DNA of 64,000 nucleotides from an uncultured Eubacterium sp. (GTDB taxonomy: Bacteria > Bacillota > Clostridia > Oscillospirales > Acutalibacteraceae): contig CALWID010000005.1 in the NCBI GenBank assembly GCA_944380635.1, positions 24,507-88,506 of the forward strand. Direction: 5' to 3'. The position numbers were made by a program, and so were the translations under genes. Of the stretch, positions 7,144-63,860 are shown piece by piece. The notes beneath the pieces were generated by a model. The model was not told the origin of the DNA, did not search any database, and worked only from the letters and a program-made list of their open reading frames with translations. Each line of letters begins with the position of its first letter. The stretch's first letter is position 1.

Positions 7144-8145
7144 ATGAAAATAAAAGGGAAAACGGCTTTTTTTGATACGCCGCCCGTAATAGTCGGCTCG
7201 GCGGGCGTCTGCGGCAAAAAAGAGGGCGAGGGCCCGCTTGCCAAAGATTTTGACGCTGTTTTTGAAGATACAACAATGGGGCAGGAGTCTTATGAACTTG
7301 CGGAATCTGCAATGCTCCACGATGCTATTATTCGCGCTCTTAATAACGCTGATACAGCGTCTTCCGAAGTAAATTTTGTTTTAAGCGGCGATTTGCTAAA
7401 TCAGTGTATGGGCAGTTCTTTTGCTCTTAAAGACCTTATGATGCCGTCAATAGGGCTTTACGGGGCGTGCTCAACTATGGCGCTTTCGCTTAGCCTCGGC
7501 GCAATGCTGGTGGACGGCGGCGCGCAGTGCGTTGCGGCGGGCACTTCAAGCCATTTCTGCTCAAGCGAAAGGCAGTTTCGCTTTCCGCTTGAATACGGCG
7601 GACAGCGGCCTCCAACTGCCCAGTGGACTGTTACGGGCGCAGGCTGTGCCGTTATTAAAAACGAAGGTGCCGGAGTAAAAATTCCCGCCGTGTCAATAGG
7701 CACCATTTGCGATATGGGTATTACAGACGCCAATAATATGGGCGCCGCAATGGCTCCCGCCGCTGAAAAAACCATATATGATTTTTTGTGCGATACTAAA
7801 AGCGCACCGCAGGATTATGATATGATTTTAACAGGCGACCTCGGGCTTACAGGCTCAAAACTTCTTTATGAATTGCTTGAAAAGGAGCACGGTCTGGATA
7901 TTAGGGAAGTACACCATGACTGCGGACTTATGATATTTGACCTTGAAAAGCAGGATGTGAACAGCGGCGGCTCGGGGTGCGGGTGCAGCGCGTCAGTCCT
8001 TTGCTCGCATATTCTAAAGCAGATGCGCTCAGGCTCACTCAAAAAAGTGCTTTTCGTGGCAACAGGGGCGCTTATGTCGCCCACTTCAAGCAAGCAGGGT
8101 CAGCCTATTCCCGGCATAGCCCACGCCGTGCTTTTGGAGGTGTGA
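7144..8145 (+). CDS. spoVAD: Stage V sporulation protein AD
   Basis: SpoVAD is a peripheral subunit of the SpoVA channel in the spore inner membrane. It binds dipicolinic acid and is needed for its uptake in sporulation and release in germination. The 333-residue product shows the thiolase/KAS-like fold sequence of the family: GSAGVCGKKEGEGPLAKDFD at the N-terminus, LYGACSTMA around the former thiolase cysteine, TVTGAGCAV, and LTGDLGLTGS. ATG at 7144 directly follows the hairpin and T tract. A 55-residue membrane protein starts three bases after its stop. In Bacillus the gene sits between spoVAC and spoVAE in one operon; here those partners are detached. Confidence 0.96.
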   Translation: MKIKGKTAFFDTPPVIVGSAGVCGKKEGEGPLAKDFDAVFEDTTMGQESYELAESAMLHDAIIRALNNADTASSEVNFVLSGDLLNQCMGSSFALKDLMMPSIGLYGACSTMALSLSLGAMLVDGGAQCVAAGTSSHFCSSERQFRFPLEYGGQRPPTAQWTVTGAGCAVIKNEGAGVKIPAVSIGTICDMGITDANNMGAAMAPAAEKTIYDFLCDTKSAPQDYDMILTGDLGLTGSKLLYELLEKEHGLDIREVHHDCGLMIFDLEKQDVNSGGSGCGCSASVLCSHILKQMRSGSLKKVLFVATGALMSPTSSKQGQPIPGIAHAVLLEV

Positions 8146-59739: not shown

Positions 59740-62013
59740 ATGGCGGGAAAGTTTGAAATCAGCAAAAATGCCGATAACACATTTTCTTTCGTCTTTAAGG
59801 ATGATGAAAAGGTTTATGCCGAATCACCCGTTTTTCAGAAAGAAGATGAGTGCAAACGAGGCGTTAAGGCGGTAAAGAAAAACAGCCGTATAAAAGTGCA
59901 GGATACGCTGCAAAATGATGAGGAAAAAACAAATCCCAAGTTCCTTGTTGAGCAGGATGGGGATAAAGTAAAATATACTCTGTTTCTTCAGACGGGCGCC
60001 GTTGCCTGCACCGGCAGCGCGGATTCCCACGAAGACGCGCTTAAAAATATAGAATTCATTGGCAATAATGCTAATTCCGCACCTATGGCGGTTGCTCAGG
60101 TAGTCCTTTCTGAAAACGAATTAAGGCAGATTAGAGTGGCTAAACTTCACGCGCTTCAGGCTGCCGGTAAAGACCCGTTTGAAATAACTACTGCCACTCA
60201 GACTTATGAAAGCGCTGATATTAAAAATGATTATGACGCTCTTGAGGGCAAAGATGTCAATATCTGCGGCAGAATAATGACTTGGCGCGATATGGGCAAG
60301 GCAAATTTCATAGATGTGCAGGACAGAGAAGGTAAAATCCAGGTCTATGTTCGTATGAACGATATAGGCGAGGATGAATATGCCGAGTTTAAAAAGTGGG
60401 ATATAGGCGATATTGTTGAGGTGTGCGGCTATGTTTTCAAAACCCGTACAGGTGAAATCTCAGTCCACGCCAAAACTATCAGGCTTCTTTCAAAATCACT
60501 TCTTCCTCTGCCTGAAAAATTCCACGGCTTAACCGATACCGATACAAGATACAGAAAGCGTTATCTTGATATGATAATGAATCCTGATGTTAAGGATACT
60601 TTTATCAAACGCTCAAAGATAATTACTTCAATCAGGAATTATCTTGATAATCACGGATTTATTGAGGTTGAAACACCTATGCTCAATACAATTCCCGGCG
60701 GAGCGGCGGCAAGGCCTTTTATCACTCACCATAACAGCCTTAATCTTGATATGTATCTGCGTATAGCAACAGAACTTTATCTTAAAAGGCTTATAGTAGG
60801 CGGTATGGAAAGAGTTTATGAAATAGGCAGAAATTTCCGCAATGAGGGTATGGATGTCCGCCATAATCCGGAATTCACCTGTATAGAACTTTATCAGGCA
60901 TATACCGATTATCACGGAATGATGGATATTGCGGAGGCGCTTATAAGAAACGCCGCTCAGGACGCGTGCGGCACTCTTCATATCACTTTCTGCGGCACTG
61001 AAATAGACCTTGAAACACCTTTTGCAAGGATGACTATGGTAGACGCCGTTAAAAAATTCAGCGGTATAGATTTTGCCGAATTTATGTCCGATAACGAAAA
61101 AGCGGTTGCAATAGCCAAAGAAAAGGATATTGAAGTCCAGCCGGGTAAGGAAACATGGGGCGATGTGCTCAATTCATTCTTTGAAGAATATGTTGAGAAA
61201 AATCTTGTTCAGCCCACTTTCATTATGGATTATCCCGTTGAGATAAGCCCCCTTACAAAAAGAAAGCCGGATTGCCCGGCTCTTACCGAAAGGTTTGAAC
61301 TTTTCATTATGGGCGGCGAGTACGGAAACGCTTATTCCGAACTTAATGACCCGATAGACCAAATGCAGCGCTTTGAGGCGCAGATGAAACTGCGTGAGGC
61401 GGGGGACGACGAGGCGAATATGATAGACCACGATTTTGTTACCGCCCTTGAATACGGTATGCCGCCGACGGGCGGCCTCGGCATAGGAATAGACAGGCTT
61501 GTAATGCTCTTAACAGATTCTTACAGCATTCGTGATGTTCTGCTGTTCCCCACAATGAAACCCTTGAAAGGTGTAAATGAAGAAATTGGTGTAAACAAAA
61601 CCGAGTCCGAAGCGCCGAAAGCCGAGCCGGAAAAGATAGATTTCTCCAAAGTGGAGATCGAGCCGTTGTTCAAGGATTTCGTGGATTTTGAGACTTTCTC
61701 TAAGTCCGATTTCCGGGCGGTCAAGGTGCTTGCCTGCGAAGCCGTACCGAAGTCCAAGAAGCTGCTCAAATTTACGCTGGACGATGGAACAGGCACAGAA
61801 CGCACGATTTTAAGCGGTATTCACGCCTATTACGAGCCGGAGGAACTGGTCGGTAAGACCTGTATCGCAATCGTCAACCTGCCGCCAAGACCGATGATGG
61901 GCATTGACTCCTGCGGTATGCTGATTAGTGCGGTACACCATGAGGAAGGCGAAGAAAAGCTCCATCTTTTGATGGTAGACGACCACATTCCGGCAGGCGC
62001 AAAGCTCTACTAA
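59740..62013 (+). CDS. lysS: Lysyl-tRNA synthetase with extra N- and C-terminal domains
   Basis: Class II LysRS, charging tRNA-Lys. The core (about 123-610) has an OB-fold anticodon domain ([20 protein letters not shown]) and the catalytic motifs: motif 1 [18 protein letters not shown], motif 2 [18 protein letters not shown] and motif 3 [13 protein letters not shown]. Residues 1-120 contain two YegP/DUF1508-like repeats ([17 protein letters not shown] and [18 protein letters not shown]), which are not part of normal LysRS. Residues 625-757 form a tRNA-binding OB domain like the MetG C-terminus ([20 protein letters not shown], then [20 protein letters not shown]). A normal LysRS ends near LLFPTMKP. 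Codon use switches there from AAA, CTT and AGA toward AAG, CTG and CGG. The total of 757 residues compares with about 490-500 for the standard enzyme. Confidence 0.93.
61570..61595 (+). repeat. Direct repeat at the lysS junction
   Basis: GGTGTAAA occurs at 61,570-61,577 and again within ATTGGTGTAAA at 61,585-61,595, exactly where LysRS core sequence stops and codon use changes. The reverse complement of the second copy lies at 62,068-62,078. Confidence 0.7.
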
Positions 62014-62049
62014 AACGGGATGTACTTCATTTTCCGAAAACCTCGGATT

Positions 62050-62095
62050 TTACACAAATACACCAATTTTACACCAATCGGTGCTAAAATCGGTG
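62050..62095. repeat. CACCAAT repeat cluster after lysS
   Basis: TACACCAATTTT, TTTACACCAAT and the inverted ATCGGTGCTAAAATCGGTG lie in 46 bases. TTTACACCAAT (62,068-62,078) is the exact complement of ATTGGTGTAAA in lysS. The arrangement resembles recombinase or excisionase binding sites at an attachment region. Confidence 0.6.
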
Positions 62096-62133
62096 CAGTA
62101 ACAAAAAAATCGCATAATTTTTAGTTTCACACC

Positions 62134-62163: not shown

Positions 62164-62266
62164 TTCTGTATTTTCTCATAGTTTTTACTCTCCCCGTCGC
62201 AAACTATACCAATCCACGCTTTCTCAATATAATGAAGCTAATCGCAGAGGAAGGAGAGGATTGAGT

Positions 62267-63667
62267 ATGAGCAATATTTTATCAGAGGTACACCCTGAAC
62301 TTGTTGCGGAATGGTCGGATAAAAACCTGCCGCTTACACCGGATAGGATTACATACGGCTCAAACAAAGTCGTTTGGTGGAAGGGCGCTTGCGGTCACGA
62401 ATGGCAGACCAGTGTTAAGGCTCGTTCAAACGGCGAAAACTGCCCAATCTGCTCAGGCGCAAGAGTGATAGAGGGCGTCAATGATTTGGCAACGCTGAAG
62501 CCGGAACTGGCTGATGAATGGTCGAGTAAGAATGATCCGCTGAAACCGACAATGGTAACGACAGGCTCTCATAAGAAAGTAATCTGGCGGGATAAATATG
62601 GTCACGAATGGACAGCAACGGTTAAGAGCAGGGCGTTAAACGGCACAGGCTGTCCGTATTGCTCCCATAATAAAATCTTAGTAGGATTCAATGACCTTGC
62701 CTCACAGCACCCTCAAATCGCTTCTGAGTGGTCTGAGAGAAATTACCCACTAAAGCCTGATATGGTTACGGTCTTTGCAAATCGGAAGGTATGGTGGCGG
62801 TGCAGCAAAGGTCACGAATGGAACACGCTCATTTCCACTCGTTCAGGCGGAAGCGGGTGTCCTTATTGCAGCGGTCAACTTCTGCTGAAAGGATTTAATG
62901 ATTTCGCCACAACACACCCTCAGCTTGCACAGGAATGGTCAGACCGGAATCTGCCCCTTACTCCTGATATGATAAACGAAAAGTCCCGCAGAAATGTCTG
63001 GTGGAAGTGCAGAGAGTGCGGGTATGAATGGCAGTCCGTTGTCTATGCCCGTGTAAAAGGAACGGTATGCCCTGTCTGTGCGGATCGGGCGGTTATGGCA
63101 GGGTATAATGATTTAGCAACGACGGACGCACATCTTCTTTCGGAATGGGACTACGAAAAGAACAAAAATATTTCCCCAAACAAAATATCAAGGCACTCAA
63201 TGCAGAGCGTGTGGTGGAAATGTTCACTCGGACACTCGTGGAAGGCAAAAATTTCAGAAAGAGCGATTGAAGGAAAAGGCTGTAAGGTGTGTGAAAAAGA
63301 CTATCTGACGGTTTTTCCGAAGCTGGCAGTTATGTATTATGCAGCGAAGAAGCGCATAAAGGTACAGACGGATACGGATAAGATTATCGGCATACCGCTT
63401 GAAATCTATTTGCCTAAAGAAAAAGCAGCGATTGAAACGGTTAGTCGGACAGAGAATGTAGAAACCTTGAAAGCATATCTGTGCCGGAAGCGGGAGATCA
63501 AACTGATTAAAATCCCCTATACATTAGGAAACAGCGAAATAGACTTCGCTATGAAAATCAAAAAAGCGTTTCGCAGCTTACATATTTTCATAACCTCGAA
63601 TGAAGATGAGGATACAGCGTTTATCCGGCAGAGGTTTTTTGAATGGAGAAAAGGACAGATAAAATAA
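62267..63667 (+). CDS. Zinc-ribbon repeat (DUF4379-like) protein with nuclease-like tail
   Basis: A 466-residue protein with five tandem repeats of about 65 residues, each of the type NDLAT-HP-LA-EWS, then VWWKC--GHEW and a closing CP-CS (for example GCPYCSGQ). Each repeat should bind one zinc; the second lacks the first cysteine (VIWRDKYGHEW). The last 120 residues contain GIPLEIYLPKEKAAIETV and LCRKREIKLIKIPY, which align with the E/DIY-P---AIE and K--LC---I-LI-I elements of Vsr/PD-(D/E)XK nucleases seen after such repeats. Some active-site acids differ, so activity is uncertain. Start is ATG at 62,267 behind AAGGAGAGG; a TTG two codons earlier is possible. Codon use differs from the chromosome to the left. 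Confidence 0.86.
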   Translation: MSNILSEVHPELVAEWSDKNLPLTPDRITYGSNKVVWWKGACGHEWQTSVKARSNGENCPICSGARVIEGVNDLATLKPELADEWSSKNDPLKPTMVTTGSHKKVIWRDKYGHEWTATVKSRALNGTGCPYCSHNKILVGFNDLASQHPQIASEWSERNYPLKPDMVTVFANRKVWWRCSKGHEWNTLISTRSGGSGCPYCSGQLLLKGFNDFATTHPQLAQEWSDRNLPLTPDMINEKSRRNVWWKCRECGYEWQSVVYARVKGTVCPVCADRAVMAGYNDLATTDAHLLSEWDYEKNKNISPNKISRHSMQSVWWKCSLGHSWKAKISERAIEGKGCKVCEKDYLTVFPKLAVMYYAAKKRIKVQTDTDKIIGIPLEIYLPKEKAAIETVSRTENVETLKAYLCRKREIKLIKIPYTLGNSEIDFAMKIKKAFRSLHIFITSNEDEDTAFIRQRFFEWRKGQIK

Positions 63668-63680
63668 AGGAGACGATTTG

Positions 63681-63860
63681 ATGAAAGACAGACAATTTCA
63701 TATCTATCTTGATGACGAGGAGTACGGACAGGTTTTGCAGGCGTTAATCGCCCTTAAAAATAATCTGATAGCGCAAGGCAGATATACAGACGCAGTAGAT
63801 GATGTCCTTATCAAATTTACAAAAGCACGAAAGAAAAAGATGACCGTGCAATACATCTGA
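63681..63860 (+). CDS. Small mobile-element protein
   Basis: A 59-residue basic protein: MKDRQFHIYLDDEEYGQVLQ, a helix LIALKNNLIAQGRYTDAVDD and the tail KFTKARKKKMTVQYI. The strand-helix-helix order resembles a ribbon-helix-helix-type DNA-binding protein, and I associate similar short proteins with conjugative elements of Clostridia, but no function is known. ATG at 63,681 follows AAAGGAGACG; a TTG one codon before is not needed. It starts 13 bases after the zinc-ribbon gene, so the two form a unit. Confidence 0.78.
   Translation: MKDRQFHIYLDDEEYGQVLQALIALKNNLIAQGRYTDAVDDVLIKFTKARKKKMTVQYI

Follow-up and report, generated by a model that had tools for sequence, protein, structure and literature searches.

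Organization of the lysS gene

The window analysed here, the whole 64,000-nucleotide stretch at positions 24507-88506 of contig C5 of genome G000 (an uncultured Eubacterium sp.), ends where the contig ends, at 64000. Near that end, at 59740-62013 on the plus strand, lies lysS, a 757-codon gene whose product is a lysyl-tRNA synthetase (LysRS) with an additional C-terminal domain, referred to below as the tail; the probable origin of this tail in an integrative element is the subject of this report. The resident part of the gene (59740-61545, + strand) comprises an N-terminal extension (codons 1-125) and the LysRS core, and it is kept in same-genus genomes that are tail-less. TIGR00499 and NF001756 both cover residues 126-609, and in a profile search positions 3-495 of the 496-position lysS_bact profile align to those same residues. 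An attachment core, TTCCCCACAATGA (attL), follows at 61546-61558 (+) and lies within codons F603-K607. A first-pass annotation made from the letters alone had put a break exactly where a normal LysRS would end, and both the profile match and the position of the core agree with that placement.

Two segments that we attribute to the element lie beyond the core. The linker (61559-61623, +) contains two GGTGTAAA repeats, at 61570-61577 and 61588-61595. We used a structure model (22-row alignment, mean pLDDT 67.9, pTM 0.43) only for the disordered linker and a strand-rich domain; in it, residues 602-653 have pLDDT values below 50 and are predicted to be disordered. The second segment (61624-62013, +) encodes the tail and the stop codon. 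The methionyl-tRNA synthetase (MetRS) C-terminal model metG_C_term matches residues 619-755 at 3e-30, and positions 2-96 of the 96-position PF01588 profile match residues 659-755 at 4.9e-23, with 81.5 bits against a gathering cut-off of 27. The nearest solved structures are an annotated MetRS beta subunit and Trbp111 (1pyb, 1.8e-21). When the tail is aligned with Trbp111, residues K33, R75, S82 and M85 of the latter correspond to K674, R717, S724 and M727, and four of the five tRNA-binding residues, which contact the 3' end of the tRNA in Trbp111, are kept; the portions of the Trbp111 literature available to us report that substitutions at these five residues weaken tRNA binding. By sequence, the tail is a predicted tRNA-binding domain of the Trbp111/MetRS-C type, placed in frame after a complete LysRS.

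At the other end of the protein, the N-terminal extension of about 125 residues (59740-60114) is a feature of the LysRS of G000's genus, and alignments with other families start at residue 106 or later. It has a weak match to DUF1508 (0.0012, below the cut-off), and two strand-strand-strand-helix repeats are predicted in it.

Codon usage and position of the break

We compared codon usage in the N-terminal extension plus core (607 codons) with that in the linker plus tail (149 codons). The share of AAG among lysine codons is 14/43 before the break and 10/15 after it, CTG rises from 7/43 to 5/14 of leucine codons as CTT falls from 29/43 to 2/14, TCC goes from 4/22 to 5/8 of serine codons, and the GC content of third codon positions is 0.43 before the break and 0.61 after it. 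A two-segment codon model gains 52.6 log units, compared with a maximum of 41.4 over 100 synonymous-codon permutations. The tail has a codon score of z = -2.55 relative to 156 background segments, two of which are equally low. These values bear out the earlier suggestion that codon style changes inside lysS. That suggestion also named the codons that would dominate after the break, and here AAG, CTG and TCC are raised; CGG provides just one of three arginine codons in the tail, and GAG stands at 8/18. The same style was said to run on through the following two genes; in the DUF4379 gene downstream (codon score z = -1.95), CTG (11/32) and CGG (9/25) are indeed raised, but GAG (8/31) and TCC (5/35) are not.

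The break had been placed at 61560-61620. A change point calculated from composition only falls at 61348, about 200 bp upstream of the point where homology breaks, and we rejected composition alone as a means of locating it. Since composition is imprecise, we take the exact position from homology with tail-less loci. Alignments with 26 tail-less loci of the same genus (L006-L031; L032, cut by a contig end, was excluded) end at 61508-61569, and 23 of the 26 end at 61559-61569. The lysS 3' ends of relatives give the same picture: all 27 tail-less lysS genes in the genus end 7-11 codons past a common IRDVLLF-type motif.

The attachment core and the ends of the element

The sequence TTCCCNACNATGA occurs once in the window, where 0.03 occurrences are expected, and the single match is the 13-bp core. 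The portions of two reports on vanD elements of enterococci that we consulted (PMC10765050, PMC8301612) give the core at the 3' end of lysS as TTCCC[g/a/c]AC[a/g]ATGA, and the core in the window is equal to it. A second core is present in the same genome on a different contig (C45:2883-2898), with G in place of the first T and 12 of the 13 bases of the published core. The order there is integrase, core, small gene and ilvD (named by resemblance), and ilvD directly follows lysS in G029 and G031. The integrase on C45 (L074), 288 amino acids long and cut by the contig end, matches PF00589 at 1.3e-30, and two full-length kin of it also match PF02920, the DNA-binding domain of the Tn916 integrase. 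The vehicle is an element with a tyrosine integrase, whose full-length kin are of the Tn916 type, at a known lysS attachment core. Across the order, 295 genomes were surveyed and 25 have an integrase of this type (E <= 1e-60).

Downstream of the tail, 62048-62119 (+) is non-coding DNA of the element's left end, with TTTACAC/ACACCAA repeats followed by AAAAATCGCATAATT at 62105-62119, the motif used in the survey described below. Similar left-end DNA follows tail-less lysS in G028 and G005, and these two genomes and G208 have elements at the lysS site that carry no tail. Next comes an element gene for a DUF4379 repeat protein (62261-63667, +; PF14311, 1.1e-82, in five stretches), with homologues in the elements of G473 and G208 (73% alike) and beside the ends of other elements. 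A small open reading frame for 59 amino acids (63681-63860, +) matched none of the families in our profile searches.

In both G000 and its relative G027, the right end supplies an in-frame start codon (MVAF|VPTMKPL). We considered whether the right end always does so, which would give a free tail protein from a displaced tail or from the excised circle, and rejected this as a general rule. Among nine right-end sites listed from 28 integrase loci, five (L184, L187, L195, L199 and L209) have no in-frame ATG before the stop and three have one; the remaining site (L200) is lysS itself.

Comparison within the genus

The genus is represented by 37 genomes including G000, of which 27 have a tail-less lysS, three a tailed one and two a cut one, with no lysS match in five. 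The first-pass annotation had named a uniform tail in element-free relatives as evidence against its reading, and these 27 congeners show no such tail. The nearest relative of G000 by LysRS is G027 (L096), in which both element ends are present. At the right core the two genomes are identical at 580 of 600 positions on the element side but at 75 of 183, ungapped, on the chromosome side, and the ilvD region past the core is 82.8% alike. Identity on the left side rises from 0.83 in lysS to 0.90 between the core and the tail stop and to 0.96 in the left end, and the synonymous divergence (dS) is 0.41 for the tail versus 1.10 for the core. The first 75 bases of the G032 tail region recur unchanged in L112, and the LysRS core of L112 shares only 56% identity with the G000 core. 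These sequences suggest that the genus acquired tails at least twice.

Genes for conjugation are unevenly distributed. A VirB4 homologue is found in three of six genus genomes with a lysS element (G027, G032 and G028, with a relaxase too; not G000, G005 or G024) and in none of four control genomes. Relaxase matches occur in two of the four controls (G031 and G004), so a relaxase alone says little, and we rejected conjugation genes as a marker of the element in this genus.

Evidence that the tail moves independently of the LysRS core

Among 77 fused proteins, the mean identity is 0.60 for the core and 0.86 for the tail, with a correlation of 0.20. Loci entered this set through their resemblance to the G000 tail, which inflates the mean tail identity, and we draw our conclusions from individual pairs, from synonymous sites and from tree topology. 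(L034, a duplicate of L096, was dropped from this comparison and from the survey of 79 loci below; L099, L133 and L170, with short cores, are outside the 77; and L043 and L111, whose tails are cut by a contig end, are outside the 79, L111 being within the 77.) L096 and L100, from distant hosts, form one such pair. Their cores are 64% identical, whereas their tails are 100% identical in protein and 0.96 identical at four-fold sites, and the nonsynonymous divergence (dN) and dS are 0.000 and 0.024 for the tail compared with 0.317 and 1.66 for the core.

The trees point the same way. The tail tree, built from tail DNA because the protein alignment was too short (of 73 branches, one was starred), shares 7 of 74 splits with the core tree, and 5 of 15 tail splits with bootstrap >=95 are found in the core tree. 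In approximately unbiased (AU) tests the core tree is rejected by the tail data (p 2.3e-7) and the tail tree by the core data (2.1e-49); each winning tree was fitted to its own test data, which favours it, but the differences amount to 1567 and 6412 log units. The median dN/dS of the tail is 0.086 over 489 of 2926 pairs, and this purifying selection indicates that the tail domain works in its hosts.

In a survey of 157 genomes of the class, 141 have a LysRS match at E <= 1e-100 and 17 of these are tailed. Tailed and tail-less lysS genes occur together within genera g210, g240, g242 and g156, and fused tails are also found in Dialister (Negativicutes) and Solobacterium (Erysipelotrichia). A LysRS with a tail is also encoded on a viral contig (L176). 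Downstream of 79 fused loci, the left-end motif (with up to two mismatches) is present in 17, element genes in eight and either in 21, compared with 0 and 1 in upstream controls; the single control match may be L145's own second tail region, since that locus has two rows under the same key.

Complete elements and modes of exchange

The single-contig genome G473 contains the whole arrangement: a tailed lysS, then a conjugative element with an integrase, and a second core 54,573 bp from the first. Its element has homologues of DUF4379, ParA and ParB, as well as a relaxase and a TraG-type ATPase identified by Pfam; gene names not tested with Pfam rest on resemblance. The genes past the second core are those that follow the tail-less lysS of its congener G400, and the flanks of the two genomes are 82.3% alike on the left and 75-77% on the right. 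G208 has a G473-like backbone without a tail, with nine G473 proteins matching at 70-91% identity (VirB4 at 91%). In G049, Pfam identifies the gene set of a full integrative and conjugative element (ICE), namely relaxase, coupling protein, TraG-type ATPase, ParA, ParB and integrase, in a stretch of about 140 kb bounded by two cores. As this region also holds a Mob_Pre protein and a serine recombinase, the G049 element may be composite.

Four kinds of outcome can be distinguished at these sites. Gain of a tail is seen in G473, and in G000 and G027 relative to their 27 tail-less congeners. A swap is seen in G360, which has one tail on lysS and another, intact and alike at 123 of 127 residues, past the right core; where the host is already tailed, the incoming element replaces the tail instead of adding one. 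Tails parted from the gene are found in G050 and L160, in which lysS has only a short stub at its end, with a tail after another core 1.4 or 8.1 kb downstream. Either a later element without a tail has removed the tail from lysS or a second element sits in tandem, and we favour neither reading. Finally, in L100 another core stands within 130 bp of the tail, and the sequence in front of this core resembles the right end of G000 and G027; this is a scar of an element that was lost while its tail was kept. A scan for further cores near 80 fused loci (both duplicates, L034 and L096, included) found one in 467 kb downstream, that of L100, and none in 438 kb upstream; by that scan, most tails are not tied to an element.

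Several other arrangements were observed around these sites. L035 (G028:C2, 2955-3464) and L100 break at the same post-tail sequence, GTACTTCATT, as if the tail and its core were a unit of their own. In L039 (G049:C1, about 7176-7686) a displaced tail past the second core is in broken pieces, with intact copies elsewhere. Three cores stand in a row at tail-less lysS genes in L220 (G264; spacings of about 10.6 and 3.6 kb) and in L221-L222 (G144; 15.7 and 15.2 kb). G400 (L228) has a second core-like site whose terminal reading is nearly that of the G473 right end, and it looks like an older short scar of an earlier insertion. About 5 kb of G027:C33 and G049:C1 are 97-99% identical between families f1 and f14, which is a recent transfer. 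The same small gene follows the tails in L101 (6891-7343) and L104 (8173-8625), and because the LysRS proteins of these hosts are distant, cargo appears from the sequences to move with the tail.

Site-specific integration as the probable source of the tail

Taken together, these results make it very probable that site-specific integration at lysS exchanges a domain of the essential LysRS, the in-frame tail being supplied by a lysS-3'-end element. This agrees with the first-pass annotation, which had proposed that foreign DNA joined in frame and gave the synthetase a new C-terminal domain, and it adds the vehicle, a tyrosine-integrase element at the lysS attachment core. In the proposed mechanism, the element would recombine at the 13-bp core within the last codons of lysS. 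Its left end would carry the linker and the tRNA-binding domain in frame after the core, so that integration would turn a resident LysRS of about 610 codons into the 757-codon fusion and would leave the old lysS 3' end past the far core, beside ilvD. The comparisons support the view that recombination at the core exchanges everything 3' of it, and that this has happened repeatedly, with tails gained, replaced, parted from lysS or kept after loss of the element.

Several observations weigh against this account. At the position of Trbp111 F78, the fifth tRNA-binding residue, the tail has Met. Of the 79 fused loci, 58 lack both the left-end motif and the element genes sought, and in G353 and G370 the pattern used matches no other core downstream of the tail, so many tails either are resident or cannot be traced. 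G400, with its second core-like site 81 bp past the lysS core, is not a pristine empty site. In G000 itself, contig C5 ends 2 kb past the tail, the two element ends are on different contigs (C5 and C45), no VirB4 homologue was found in the assembly at E <= 1e-30, and the relaxase match is weak (5e-24). The combination of relaxase, coupling protein and VirB4-type ATPase that marks a full ICE was not found for G000, in which the element is not assembled through, and this copy may be partial, decayed, only mobilizable or unassembled.

One alternative is that clostridial LysRS has had the tail since early times and passed it on vertically, with loss in most relatives, and that elements just insert beside it. 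The tailed minority in the class survey (17 of 141), the 58 unmarked loci and the genes after some tails, which look ordinary by eye in Dialister L156 and Ruminococcus L175, are all compatible with this. Vertical descent would not leave near-identical tails, synonymous sites included, on distant cores, nor does it fit the strong incongruence of the trees, the presence and absence of tails within genera or the complete element that lies between two cores with a tail inside; for G000 and G027 it is contradicted by the tail and core dS values and by the identity profile. We consider it very unlikely. Because so many loci are unmarked and some are followed by ordinary-looking genes, we conclude that tails also persist as resident domains, or that their elements are of other kinds than those sought.

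It is also conceivable that existing tails are exchanged by homologous recombination rather than by an integrase, the attachment core being merely a conserved LysRS motif. In G360 the two tails are nearly the same (123/127 amino acids, 359/381 nucleotides) and their linkers differ, as under gene conversion. Yet the 27 congeners of G000 have no lysS tail to recombine with, a further copy of the core lies next to an integrase at the far end, and the identity between G000 and G027 falls at the right core, all of which makes this explanation highly improbable. That unrelated DNA was wrongly joined to lysS during assembly, which the 47 contigs of G000, the contig end 2 kb past the tail and the composition change near the join might suggest, has almost no probability, because the frame is kept, the join is at a known attachment core, the same junction recurs in G027 (L096), L098, L100 and L111, and G473, whose genome is a single contig, shows the arrangement in full; the first-pass annotation had asked whether the contig might be chimeric.

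Site-specific integration thus stays our preferred account of the tail, and we can suggest what the tail may do. By analogy with its relatives, the domain would bind the 3' CA end of tRNA and either hold the tRNA near LysRS, which is likely, or protect it. It may be kept since it is helpful, or at least harmless, to charging. As for the elements, we favour the idea that they carry a tail since they circulate among tailed hosts whose LysRS must not be left truncated. More broadly, it is likely that across Clostridia such elements give an essential synthetase a folded tRNA-binding domain, exchange it for another or take it away, and that loss of the element can fix the domain in the host enzyme. 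This would explain the scattered occurrence of tailed LysRS within genera, and a mobile element may in this way tune the lysine charging of its host. With gain, swap and scar each visible, there is a direct way, open to testing, for synthetases to acquire additional domains; if true, the domain evolution of an essential enzyme is driven by site-specific recombination.

Comparison with known systems

The integration site and the type of element are already known. Our literature searches found no report of lysS elements that carry a tRNA-binding domain, and the domain transfer is unreported in the literature found. The Trbp111/MetRS C-terminal domain (PF01588) is matched by the tail over its whole length, with four of five tRNA-binding residues kept; unlike in those proteins, a linker connects the domain here to LysRS, and the coding sequence of the domain lies at one end of a mobile element. 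A LysRS with an EMAPII-like C-terminal domain has been solved (PDB 4up7), which we take to be the Entamoeba enzyme; its C-terminal part matches the tail at 1.8e-06 and is far from it in sequence. Prophages e14 and P21, which integrate in icd, supply a homologous substitute for the gene end, whereas lysS gains, swaps or is parted from a separate domain.

In the parts of the reports available to us, the vanD ICE and Tn6711-6713 of enterococci use the same 13-bp core at the same place in lysS and bear an integrase (PMC10765050, PMC8301612), and streptococcal ICEs in lysS are described with repeats of 13-17 bp (PMC4701971) and as lysS insertions (PMC7168690). The difference from these enterococcal and streptococcal elements is that here a tRNA-binding domain of about 130 amino acids is added, together with a linker. 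Integration of e14 and P21 in icd likewise affects the 3' end of a housekeeping gene (for e14 excision, see the portion consulted of PMC11417348). Integration at gene ends is usually described as near-neutral for the target, whereas at lysS the architecture of the target's protein changes.
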